Positions 8,752 to 32,324 of a DNA stretch of 32,549 bases are shown here, one piece after another. The stretch is taken from the NCBI GenBank assembly GCA_002898175.1, contig BDSW01000291.1, positions 1-32,549 on the forward strand. Reading direction: 5' to 3'. Within the stretch, counting starts at the first letter, position 1. The number at the start of each line of letters is the position of its first letter. Source of the DNA: a bacterium BMS3Abin04. Its GTDB lineage: Bacteria > Bacteroidota > Ignavibacteria > Ignavibacteriales > Melioribacteraceae. The translations under genes were made by a program, and so were the position numbers. The notes under the pieces were generated by a model that was given only the letters and a program-made list of their open reading frames with translations, was not told the DNA's origin and did not search any database.

Positions 8752-10314
8752 TTAATCTATAATATCCTTAATGATATTTTCAACTGACGAATAGTTTAAC
8801 GGTTGATATAAAAATTCCCTTACTCCTAAACCAATATATCTATTTTTAACAGAATCTTCTAAGTTTTCCGCAGAAATAGCAATTGGAATATTTTTATAAT
8901 TTTCTTTTTTCTTAAGAGACTCAACTAATTGTGTCCCGGTCATTAAAGGCATGTGATGATGTGAAATTATAAGAGCAGGTGTTTTTTCGGCAATTAAGTT
9001 AATAGCTTCGTACCCGTTTTGAGCAAAAACTATTTCAAAATTACTAAATGAATCTTGAATTACCGATTCATAAAGCTGCTTATTCTCCTGATTATTCTCA
9101 ATAATTATAAATATATTATGAGCCTCCGGTAAAGTGATGTGAAATTCAGTCCCTTCGTTTTCTTTTGAATAGAACCAAATTTGACCATTATGTTTTTCCA
9201 CTATTTCTTTTACAAGCGTTAACCCCAATCCACTGCCCTTTTCTCCCATTGTACCGTTGAGTGTGAACTTTTCATCTATTCTGAATAGCTTAGACTGATT
9301 CTCTTCGGAAATACCCACGCCTTCATCCTTTATTATAATTTCAATAGTTTGTTCTTTAAATTTAGCTGATTTAATAAGAATATTTTTGCCGGGCTGTGTG
9401 AATTTTATAGCATTGCTTAAGAGATTAGTAATTGCTTGATTAATTAATCTTTCATCAACATTTAAAAACATATTGTTTGGAATGTCGGTTTTAATTTCAA
9501 TACTTTTTCTTATTGCAGCACCGGTTAATACGGAAACGCAATTGTTGATAATACTTTTGGTTTCTAATCGTCTCGGTTCAACCTTCATCGTTCCAGTCTG
9601 AAGTCTGGACCAGTCCAGTAAATAATTAATTAGTTGAAGTTGAGTTCGAGAAGCATCGTTTATATATTCTAAGTATTCTCTTCGTTCAGCTTCCTGTAAA
9701 TCCGGTTCATTTAGGAGAATTTCGGAGAAACCCAATAAACTTGTAAACGGTGCTCGTAAGTCATGCGAAACTATTGAAATTAATTTGTCTTTTGAACGGT
9801 TTAGCTCTTCCATCTTGTGGAGAAGAATTTGCATCTCATCAATTTTCTTTTTGCTTTCGGTAATATCATTAATAAAACCGATTACATGTTTAATTGAGCC
9901 GTTACTATCCCGAATAACTTTTGCAAATTCTTTTACCCTAACTATATCACCGGATTTGCTGTTTAGCCTGTATTCAATGCTATAAGTATTTTCGGTAAGC
10001 CTTTCTTCTAAATCCAGCAGCTTATCTTTGAATTTTCTAAGATCATCTTCATGCACGCATGATAAATATTTATTTTTCAAACTATTAATTTCTTCCTGAC
10101 TGTAACCGGTAATTTGTAATACAGACTCAGAAAATTCATCTTTTCGTTTAGGTTCTAAATACCTTATAAAGGTAAAAAAAACTCCGGAGGAGATGAGCAA
10201 CGAAAATACTTCCTTGGAAAATCCATTTTTATCAAATATCTGATTATTCATATTAAAATAGGTTGCTTCCTCAGCTTTATTTGCAGAATTAAAATTAAAT
10301 CCATTTGTCTTCAT
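8752..10314 (-). CDS. PAS histidine kinase with degenerate receiver domain
   Basis: The 520-residue protein has a PAS domain (about 45-155), a HisKA domain with phospho-accepting H184 ('VSHDLRAPF'), and an HATPase_c domain with N301, a G1 box DEGVGIS (330-336) and a G2 box GSGLGL (360-365). A receiver-like fold follows (about 400-520). In it the acidic pair is E406-N407, the phospho-acceptor position is H452 in 'SHHHMP', and the invariant Lys is Q504 ('YQP'), so phosphotransfer to this domain is unlikely. No membrane segment or signal peptide is convincing; the hydrophobic stretch at 37-50 leads into the PAS fold. It lies 86 bp after the NtrC-type gene on the same strand. The input signal is unknown. 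Confidence 0.88.
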   Translation of the reverse strand: MKTNGFNFNSANKAEEATYFNMNNQIFDKNGFSKEVFSLLISSGVFFTFIRYLEPKRKDEFSESVLQITGYSQEEINSLKNKYLSCVHEDDLRKFKDKLLDLEERLTENTYSIEYRLNSKSGDIVRVKEFAKVIRDSNGSIKHVIGFINDITESKKKIDEMQILLHKMEELNRSKDKLISIVSHDLRAPFTSLLGFSEILLNEPDLQEAERREYLEYINDASRTQLQLINYLLDWSRLQTGTMKVEPRRLETKSIINNCVSVLTGAAIRKSIEIKTDIPNNMFLNVDERLINQAITNLLSNAIKFTQPGKNILIKSAKFKEQTIEIIIKDEGVGISEENQSKLFRIDEKFTLNGTMGEKGSGLGLTLVKEIVEKHNGQIWFYSKENEGTEFHITLPEAHNIFIIIENNQENKQLYESVIQDSFSNFEIVFAQNGYEAINLIAEKTPALIISHHHMPLMTGTQLVESLKKKENYKNIPIAISAENLEDSVKNRYIGLGVREFLYQPLNYSSVENIIKDIID

Positions 10315-10355
10315 TTAACTGATAATCAAATTTAACAACTAAATATACTAAAGAT

Positions 10356-10384
10356 AATTAAATTCAGTTAGACAGAATTTAATT
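10356..10384. repeat. 10-bp perfect inverted repeat between ntrC-like and hybrid kinase genes
   Basis: AATTAAATTC (10356-10365) and GAATTTAATT (10375-10384) are perfect complements around a nine-base loop. The stem is almost entirely A/T. It lies in the 86-bp gap between the NtrC-like stop and the hybrid kinase start. It could be a weak terminator or a dyad operator, but it has no T-tract and can arise by chance in AT-rich DNA. Confidence 0.3.
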
Positions 10385-10400
10385 TTAAGTTTCGCTTTTT

Positions 10401-11765
10401 TTAGTCATCAAAAGATTTAGTAGGAATATCAAGTTCTTCCATCTTTCTGTAAAGCGAAGATAGACCAATGTTCAATGCTTTCGCTGTTGCATCTTTATCA
10501 TAATTATATTTTTTTACAGTTTTAATAATATGTTCTTTCTCGAATGCTTTTACTGCATCTTTTAGTATTTCTGGATACAAGTTTTCATTTGTCTCGCAAA
10601 TTAGATAATCGGCCAAATTATCCGGCGAAATAACCATACCCGTAGCAAATATTACTGCACGCTCTATTACGTTTTCCAATTCTCTTACTCCGCCTCGCCA
10701 ATTATGGTTCATTAAGATTCTAATGGTCTTGTTATCTATTCTAAGATTCGGTTTACCCATTTCGTAACAAAATTTTTCAATGAAGTGATTAACAAGAATT
10801 GGGATATCTTCTTTCCTTTCGTTTAGTGAAGGTAACTTAATTTCAACTACATTTAATCTATAATATAAGTCTTCTCTAAATTCACCGGTTTTCGTTTTTT
10901 CAAAGATATTTTGGTTAGTCGCAGCAATTATTCTCGCATCGGTTTTTACATGAACTGTGCCTCCAACCGGTAAAAATTGTTTGTCTTCAATTGCACGTAA
11001 TAATTTAACTTGCAATGCTAAAGGAAGATCACCAATTTCATCCAGGAATAAAGTTCCTCCGTCCGCAACTTTGAACAAACCGGTTTTTTCTTCAGTTGCA
11101 CCGGTAAAGGATCCTTTTTTATGACCAAACAATTCGCTCTCAATTAAATTCTCAGAGATTGCGCCACAATTTATTGGAAGAAATATATCGTTTTTTCTTT
11201 TACTGTTGTAATGGATAGCCTTTGCAACCAGCTCTTTCCCGGTCCCGCTTTTCCCGGAAATTAAGACATTACTGTTGGTTGGAGCTACTTGGCGAATTAA
11301 GTTGAAAACTTTGTGCATCGATTTGCTCTTCCCAATTATATTTTCAAACCCGACGGGTGCCGAAATTCTTTGCCGCAAAGTTATATTTTCCGAAGCCGCA
11401 CGCTTATAATCCAATAATCTTTTAACTTTCATAATAAGATCATCAAACTCAATGGGCTTTATAAAATAATCAATAGCGCCTTTCCGCAGAGCACCAATAG
11501 CTGTATCAATTGAAGCATAAGCAGTCATAATAATAAAAAAGCTTTCGGGAGAAAAGTGAGAAACCTTTTCTAATAGTTGAATCCCATCCCATTTAGGCAT
11601 CTTAATATCGGAAATAATAATGTCATAATCTTCCGATTTTATTCTATCTAAAGCTTCCTGACCGTCAGATGCCGTATCGGTTCTATAACCTTCCTCGTTT
11701 AAGATCATTTGTATTGAGGTTCGGATTGCTTCTTCGTCGTCTACTACTAAAATTTTTGCGTTCAT
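10401..11765 (-). CDS. NtrC-family sigma54-dependent response regulator
   Basis: The 454-residue protein has an intact receiver domain (acidic pair D9/D10, phospho-acceptor D53 in 'SDIKMP', K103 in 'FIKP'), an AAA+ domain with Walker A GKSGTGKE at 171-178, the sigma54-contacting loop as GSFTGA (218-223, a conservative Ala-to-Ser variant of GAFTGA) and Walker B 'LFLDEIGD' at 239-246. It ends in a Fis-type helix-turn-helix ('DATAKALNIGLSSLYRKMEEL', about 425-445). It should activate sigma54 promoters when phosphorylated. It starts 24 bp after the kinase gene at 11790-13286, which is almost certainly its partner. The regulon is unknown. Confidence 0.94.
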   Translation of the reverse strand: MNAKILVVDDEEAIRTSIQMILNEEGYRTDTASDGQEALDRIKSEDYDIIISDIKMPKWDGIQLLEKVSHFSPESFFIIMTAYASIDTAIGALRKGAIDYFIKPIEFDDLIMKVKRLLDYKRAASENITLRQRISAPVGFENIIGKSKSMHKVFNLIRQVAPTNSNVLISGKSGTGKELVAKAIHYNSKRKNDIFLPINCGAISENLIESELFGHKKGSFTGATEEKTGLFKVADGGTLFLDEIGDLPLALQVKLLRAIEDKQFLPVGGTVHVKTDARIIAATNQNIFEKTKTGEFREDLYYRLNVVEIKLPSLNERKEDIPILVNHFIEKFCYEMGKPNLRIDNKTIRILMNHNWRGGVRELENVIERAVIFATGMVISPDNLADYLICETNENLYPEILKDAVKAFEKEHIIKTVKKYNYDKDATAKALNIGLSSLYRKMEELDIPTKSFDD

Positions 11766-30930: not shown

Positions 30931-32292
30931 TTAGGAAAAATAGGGACGTTCTCTAAAATTTACTCCAATCTCATTTTCAACAAAACTCCTTGCTTTTTCA
31001 ATATCAATTTGGCTCATTCCAACAACAGTTAATGTAACCTTTGAATATTGTTTTGCTGATTTGGCAAAAGCAACCATTTCATCAAACATTTTCGGTTCAA
31101 CTCTCATAATTTTGGCGTATTGTTCGGGATCGGAAGAATTCAAGCTAATAGAAACACTATCGATTAAATCTTTAAATTCAGGAGTTATATCGCGTTTATT
31201 TATCACATTCCCGTGTCCGTCCGTATCCAATCTTGTTCGTCCGCCGTTTTGTTTTACATACTTCGCTACTTCTTTTACAACTTCCCAGCGGATAGTCGGT
31301 TCACCGTAACCGCAGAAGACAATTTCGTTGTATTCTCTTGGGTTACCAATTTCTTTAATGAATGCATCAGCGCCGGGTTCTTCGGATTTATCCATTTTCA
31401 GATTATAACCATTAAGAACAGCCTCGCCTTTCCTATCACAGAATATGCAATCCGAATCGCAGCGGTTTGTAACATTGATATAGAGATTTTCCCCGATCTG
31501 ATATGTTATACTTAGTTTAGGTTTTGTACCGATTCCGAATAATTTGTAAGCGTTATAGGAAGTAGTGCGCGCAACGTCTTCAGTCCTTATACTTTTTAGC
31601 TCCGCAATTTTCTCTGCTATTAAAGCAACGTAAGAAGGTTCATTCCTTTTACCTCGATGGGGTACAGGAGTTAAAAACGGCGAATCGGTTTCAAGCAGTA
31701 AGTCTTCAATGCTAACTTTATCTAGAACTTTTCTAAGATTATCCGCATTCTTAAAAGTTATATTCCCGGTGAAAGAAACAAAATGCCCCATTTCAATAAG
31801 TTCTCTTGCTTCGTCAATAGAACCGGCAAAACAATGAAACTGCGCTTTTAATTCGGTTCCTTTATATTCACGGAAAATTTTCATTAAATCCGTACTTGCT
31901 TCGCGGTTGTGAACGATTATTGGTAATTTAAGTTTTAGCGCAAGATCAATCTGCTTTTTGAATGCATCAATCTGAACTTCCTTGGGAGAGAAATCATAAT
32001 AATAATCAAGACCGATTTCACCAATGGCAACAACTTTCGGATTTTTTGAAAGTTCTTCGATCTTTTTAATTAAAGAATCATCCCATTCTTTTGTATCCTG
32101 CGGATGAACTCCAACAGCGGCATAAATAAAATCATATTTTTCCGCCAGCTGTACTGCTTCGGCAGATGTGGCTAAATTTGTCCCCGGTACTAATATATAA
32201 TCAACACCGTTTGCTTTTGCGCGGTTAACAACTTCATCTAAATCTCCGTTAAAATTAGGATAGAAAAGATGAGCATGAGAATCTATAAACAT
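30931..32292 (-). CDS. TatD-family nuclease fused to radical SAM domain
   Basis: The 453-residue protein joins two domains in one frame. Residues 1-255 form a complete TatD metal-dependent hydrolase: H6-x-H8, E92 ('GEIGLDYY'), H128 ('VHNRE'), H153 ('FHCFAGS') and D203 ('LETDSPFL'). Residues 258-453 form a short radical-SAM domain with C278-x3-C282-x2-C285 ('NRCDSDCIFC') and 'FCGYGEPTIRW' as the SAM-binding GGE-like motif. Separate TatD-linked radical-SAM proteins are a known family; here they are fused. TatD acts in DNA repair/3'-5' exonuclease or RNA quality control; the radical-SAM substrate is unknown. A Shine-Dalgarno AAGGAG is present about 11 bases before the ATG. Confidence 0.92.
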   Translation of the reverse strand: MFIDSHAHLFYPNFNGDLDEVVNRAKANGVDYILVPGTNLATSAEAVQLAEKYDFIYAAVGVHPQDTKEWDDSLIKKIEELSKNPKVVAIGEIGLDYYYDFSPKEVQIDAFKKQIDLALKLKLPIIVHNREASTDLMKIFREYKGTELKAQFHCFAGSIDEARELIEMGHFVSFTGNITFKNADNLRKVLDKVSIEDLLLETDSPFLTPVPHRGKRNEPSYVALIAEKIAELKSIRTEDVARTTSYNAYKLFGIGTKPKLSITYQIGENLYINVTNRCDSDCIFCDRKGEAVLNGYNLKMDKSEEPGADAFIKEIGNPREYNEIVFCGYGEPTIRWEVVKEVAKYVKQNGGRTRLDTDGHGNVINKRDITPEFKDLIDSVSISLNSSDPEQYAKIMRVEPKMFDEMVAFAKSAKQYSKVTLTVVGMSQIDIEKARSFVENEIGVNFRERPYFS

Positions 32293-32324
32293 TTATCGAA
32301 TTTCTCCTTCCGAATAAGTATGGA

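Follow-up and report, generated by a model that had tools for sequence, protein, structure and literature searches.

The pairing of a TatD nuclease with a small radical-SAM protein already has a name: the NCBIfam model TIGR04038 (tatD_link_rSAM) describes a "TatD family nuclease-associated radical SAM protein". Its model type, subfamily_domain, suits use within longer proteins, and its description gives no reaction. A search of titles and the beginnings of abstracts, mostly outside the subscription journals, found no paper treating the TatD/radical-SAM pair. TatD proteins, including E. coli YcfH and the human TatDs, act as 3'-5' exonucleases and AP endonucleases, and those of class II are defined by an HxH motif together with E, H, H and D metal residues (parts of PMC10085689). 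Another described partnership of a TatD is the anti-phage Qat system, which couples the TatD-fold protein QatD with a QueC-like protein and not with a radical-SAM enzyme (part of PMC13329287). Closely related to the TIGR04038 domain itself is a second small radical-SAM domain, TIGR04100 (rSAM_pair_X).

The locus reported here lies in a window of 32,549 nucleotides, by which we mean the whole stretch of DNA that was analysed, and joins both partners in one protein. Its open reading frame starts with ATG, runs uninterrupted for 453 aa and has a good ribosome-binding site; downstream on the same strand follow genes for a D-Ala-D-Ala carboxypeptidase (S13) and a PrmA-like methyltransferase. The features are as follows.

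30931..32292, minus strand: TatD-radical-SAM fusion gene, 453 aa, a single ORF in which both domains are matched and for which fused orthologues are known
31531..32292, minus strand: N-terminal class II (HxH) TatD nuclease domain, residues 1-254 (TIGR00010, PF01026)
31510..31530, minus strand: linker of 7 residues (255-261), the gap between both domain matches
30940..31509, minus strand: C-terminal minimal radical-SAM domain (TIGR04038), residues 262-451, from profile matches
31438..31461, minus strand: [4Fe-4S] cluster motif C278-x3-C282-x2-C285, found in fused and unfused frames
32304..32311, minus strand: Shine-Dalgarno-like ggaaggag upstream of the ATG, read from the sequence

The C-terminal domain belongs to TIGR04038 over its full length (residues 262-451, profile positions 2-191 of 192, 212.6 bits against a cut-off of 129.7), and the TatD with which that family is associated stands in the same frame, so the pairing seen here is one that is already named; the difference is that the family name tells of an association, whereas the connection here is covalent. 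The architecture is thus an ordinary one of a named kind, built from two families that both have names. An earlier note on this DNA had held that TatD-associated radical-SAM proteins are known, which the name of TIGR04038 bears out, and that two enzymes with complete active sites share one polypeptide, which the profile matches and the kept motif residues confirm. Membership in the other described families does not extend to the fusion: it reaches 160.9 bits against the TIGR04100 cut-off of 262 and 87.9 bits against 230 for QatD (82.6 bits in PADLOC, which lists no cut-off). Prokaryotic viperin was likewise considered and rejected, at 34.7 bits against 180 (PADLOC pVip matches of 38.0 and 31.8 bits, no cut-off listed).

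The TatD half is matched by PF01026 over residues 3-253 (294.5 bits) and by TIGR00010 with 294.1 bits against a cut-off of 206. H6, H8, E92, H128, H153 and D203, which we take to be the TatD metal-site residues, are identical in 51 of the 51 fused frames first collected, a set that, like the 67 unfused frames beside it, includes duplicate loci. The domain thus has the HxH and the E, H, H and D of class II, as do YcfH, the S. aureus protein (6l25, 2gzx) and human TATDN3, which likewise keep all metal-site residues. It is 45-46% identical to 6l25 and 2gzx across the domain, and its model agrees with 6l25 at a target TM of 0.94 and with solved TatDs at best at 1.6 A over about 250 residues. What sets the fusion apart from these class II proteins is its C-terminal radical-SAM domain. 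No other TatD was detected in the genome, which is 91.8% complete. The TatD half most likely keeps the usual metal-dependent action as 3'-5' exonuclease and AP endonuclease.

The radical-SAM half is matched by PF04055 over residues 272-433 (62.3 bits against 29.5) and carries the CxxxCxxC of the radical SAM superfamily within that core. It is a bare core, with only 2 residues after its end. The motif is present in 51/51 fused and 67/67 unfused frames, and the intact CxxxCxxC and GEP motifs make cleavage of SAM to a 5'-deoxyadenosyl radical the most likely activity of this half. Beside the cysteines, N273, T275, P306, F326, C327, G328, G330, R354, T357, G359, D378, S383, N385, F409 and R449, among others, are the same in at least 117 of the 118 linked and unlinked frames. 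The fact that unlinked forms share these invariant residues suggests that the reaction is probably the same without a TatD, and the chemistry does not seem to depend on one. Across phyla (70 fused, 32 adjacent and 26 unlinked sequences) no TatD position separates linked from unlinked TatDs. For the radical-SAM half, the conserved basic residues hint at a substrate that bears a phosphate or carboxylate. Within the fused proteins the mean identity of this half is 62%, against 52% for the TatD half (2415 pairs). An AlphaFold model of the fusion from 15 alignment rows (pLDDT 88.3, pTM 0.69) shows alternating helices and strands in the radical-SAM region, and the isolated domain modelled without an alignment reaches a pLDDT of 54.0. 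In a phmmer search with the domain, no PDB entry matched below E 0.048. On mobile elements the domain is seen in 1 of 72,556 plasmid records, with a TIGR04100 annotation, and in 2 of 50,697 phage records, neither of them annotated.

A frame that joins two enzymes could be a sequencing or assembly error, as the earlier note had warned, and such chance joins do exist: in one locus (L173) the two domains are joined solely across an N gap. Our collection, however, holds 60 distinct frames with both domains, the window included, of which 57 are uninterrupted; in the other three, L173 and L177 reach N gaps and L178 begins at a contig end. The distance between the domains is 7 residues in 57 of the 60, 8 in two and 52 in the one across the N gap. 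CxxxCxxC is kept in 60/60, so the fused orthologues have not lost their radical-SAM cysteines, the other outcome that had been named as counting against the fusion. Independent genomes with the same frame, and a tree in which L173 is the single fused-labelled row outside one clade, leave an error with practically no probability, and the orthologues have refuted it.

The fusion is an old one and stable among relatives. Of 39 near genomes, the window included, 38 exceed the cut-off of TIGR04038, and in 36 the frame is 452 aa long or longer; in the other three the pair is split again (G012), lies at a contig edge (G034) or meets an N gap (G014). Across a sample of 197 genomes of the class the radical-SAM domain occurs in 82 (81 above cut-off); 78 of these have frames of at least 425 aa, fusion being read from frame length where no locus was fetched, and the remaining four have short frames at contig edges. 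No unfused copy away from contig edges was found in this sample. Two departures from the common form deserve mention. In L008 (2925..1498, minus strand) the fusion has been split again into two adjacent genes, the second of which can start from an ATG 3 bases beyond the TatD stop, with GGGGA just upstream. L174 (2905-4302, minus strand; family f16) is a diverged fusion in which CxxxCxxC is kept and C327 has been lost together with the conserved C-terminal region.

We built a quick, midpoint-rooted tree from 139 radical-SAM domains. In it, one clade (SH-aLRT 98) unites 57 of the 58 rows labelled as fused with the re-split L008 and with L179, at a contig edge. Elsewhere the two genes are separate. 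Among the Elusimicrobiota the domain is present in 65 of 79 sampled genomes; 64 of these have it in frames no longer than 309 aa, and the remaining one is L173. In the phylum of a Clostridiales genome it is present in 71 of 299 genomes, in 70 of them in frames of at most 291 aa, and the 493-aa frame of G278 holds no TatD. A TatD lies within a 1.5-kb flank in 18 of the 20 top-scoring Elusimicrobiota loci and in 13 of the 30 top-scoring loci of the Clostridiales genome's phylum, 17 of the 30 being without one, and the pairing recurs in three phyla. The simplest history would be an operon pair fused once and then inherited vertically: a single fusion of a neighbouring tatD and small radical-SAM gene would have taken place in the ancestry of the class as well as of a small number of members of another family in the phylum.

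The association is far from general, as TatD is absent from the 1.5-kb flanks in all 11 loci of family f21, which belongs to the same phylum as the window, and from four of four lower-scoring Elusimicrobiota loci with about 7 kb fetched per side, one of which has metG directly upstream. A recurring order in Elusimicrobiota and in the phylum of the Clostridiales genome is metG-tatD-radical-SAM, which ksgA follows in L143 and L144; L143 has further small frames between tatD and the radical-SAM gene. In L147 (7579-9666, minus strand) MetG and TatD share a 696-aa frame; the TatD match there begins at profile position 15, so the HxH is missing, and the frame is probably an indel and not a working fusion.

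This gene order raises the possibility that the pair serves translation quality control or RNA maturation, acting on tRNA or rRNA ends, with TatD working either as an RNA exonuclease or, in the manner of the TatD-like DTD3, as a deacylase. The metG and ksgA neighbours speak for it. However, the metG-tatD-ksgA string is ancient and is also found without a radical-SAM gene, presumably as in B. subtilis, which makes the neighbourhood weak evidence, and we consider this reading improbable. A replacement of RNase M5 by the domain was also considered. Genomes with TIGR04038 proper have RNase M5 (TIGR00334) in 5 of 62 cases; it was found in 9 of 9 TIGR04100-like ones (the nine lowest-scoring full-length rows) and in 42 of 228 without the domain, a distribution confounded by descent; with G371 counted as TIGR04100-like, as the tree suggests, the first two become 5/61 and 9/10.

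The gene neighbours of the wider family point in several directions. Members that score like TIGR04100 form a clade in the same tree, and their neighbours are not TatD. In this TIGR04100-like clade (L122-L130, L156 and L044; 11 loci, two of them nearly identical) every locus (11 of 11) has a pyridoxamine-kinase gene upstream, 5 have a relative of the preQ1 synthase QueF and 3 a membrane protein like TIGR04002, which we take to be an ECF transporter subunit (above the model cut-off in L156, below it in L127). We first suspected that TIGR04100 is the queuine lyase QueL, which is probably QueE-like, and rejected this, no preQ1 riboswitch being found at the gathering score in 21 loci and 5 earlier ones; in C. 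difficile, QueK-QrtT-QueL form a preQ1-riboswitch operon (parts of PMC11477304 and PMC11130926). The QueF-like neighbours remain an observation on this clade and do not extend to the TatD-linked one. In L157, a membrane protein (9637-10404, minus strand) is encoded some 2 kb upstream of a clostridial radical-SAM gene that stands free. It has no NCBIfam match at 1e-10; judged by eye, it presumably resembles a YhhQ-type queuosine-precursor transporter. In family f21, the opposite strand encodes a B12-dependent ribonucleotide reductase near the free-standing radical-SAM gene of L131, the one of L136 has an acyl-CoA dehydratase activase nearby as well as a double-cubane-reductase-like protein (below model cut-off), and ABC transporters were recognised by eye near L135 and L136.

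These f21 surroundings of L131 and L136 are among the points that would fit a protein-activating enzyme of the pyruvate-formate-lyase-activase kind, as are the minimal size of the domain and the presence of the PFL-activating enzyme 3c8f among the solved radical-SAM folds matched (E 1.7e-4; the VIA list spans residues 1-256 only). The target TM of that match is just 0.56, however, and the PFLA HMM gives 29.1 bits against a cut-off of 231.75. Nor was a glycyl-radical enzyme gene recognised by eye next to the domain in the listed loci, where most neighbours are unannotated. We regard an activase as likewise improbable.

The same class of bacteria contains a second fusion to TatD. Among the genomes without the radical-SAM domain, we examined 18 with long TatD frames, and in 17 of these, all in sister families (L184, L189, L199, L202, L205, L206, L209-L216, L218, L225 and L226), TatD is followed by a signal-peptide-like helix and a barrel-like domain; the eighteenth, L217, is merely an over-long frame, and eight examined genomes with short frames have TatD alone. 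The barrel-like domain is about 200-330 aa long, continues in frame past the last helix of TatD and ends with an aromatic residue in 12 of 17; Pfam gives hints of outer-membrane barrels, all below cut-off. A profile made from 11 such domains, which misses the f13 type (L210 and L211), matches 37 of the 197 class genomes, 26 of them outside the profile, once each and in frames of 474-674 aa, with no overlap with the 82 genomes that have the radical-SAM domain. An in-frame ATG stands, perhaps by chance, 5-20 codons ahead of the junction in 17 of 17, so the one frame may give two proteins. The TatD-barrel fusion is possibly more surprising than the radical-SAM fusion. The C-terminus of TatD is a recurrent fusion point in this class, and this weakens any step from fusion to a shared substrate.

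The earlier note had taken the fusion as a strong sign of a shared substrate or pathway. That claim is not borne out: TatD is often absent nearby, the invariant residues are the same in unlinked forms and TatD is also fused to barrels, so the fusion by itself is weak evidence of a shared pathway. Its suggestion that the substrate is a nucleic-acid end went beyond what our results show. We tentatively prefer a coupled role of both halves on nucleic-acid-derived substrates, a shared nucleic-acid substrate being plausible; coupling and substrate are both a guess on our part. TatD would expose or remove a 3' end or nucleotide, and the radical domain would then repair or modify it, abstracting a hydrogen from a phosphate- or carboxylate-bearing substrate that the conserved basic residues R354, R449 and K347 would hold. 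A narrower form, in which TatD trims or incises and the radical half repairs or modifies the 3' end or base thereby exposed, or the nucleotide set free, making a two-step nucleic-acid end enzyme, we find rather doubtful; we know of no TatD system in which radical repair or modification of such ends occurs.

Almost as likely as the coupled role is that two co-expressed housekeeping neighbours with unrelated jobs were simply joined, the radical half acting on a free small molecule with or without TatD. The many relatives without a nearby TatD, the different neighbours of the TIGR04100-like sister clade, the joining of TatD in sister families to an unrelated barrel-like domain and the lack of any linkage signature in TatD are all consistent with such a convenience. 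On the other side stand the TatD/radical-SAM pairing in three phyla and the scarcity of separation once the genes had fused, with short frames only at contig edges in the class sample and a single re-split in near relatives.

What the window offers is one protein uniting the two partners that NCBIfam already links by name, and the radical-SAM reaction can therefore be tested with its partner at a fixed stoichiometry. If the two halves do share a substrate, radical chemistry would be added to the TatD nucleases; if they do not, the fusion would be a warning against calling functions from TatD fusions.
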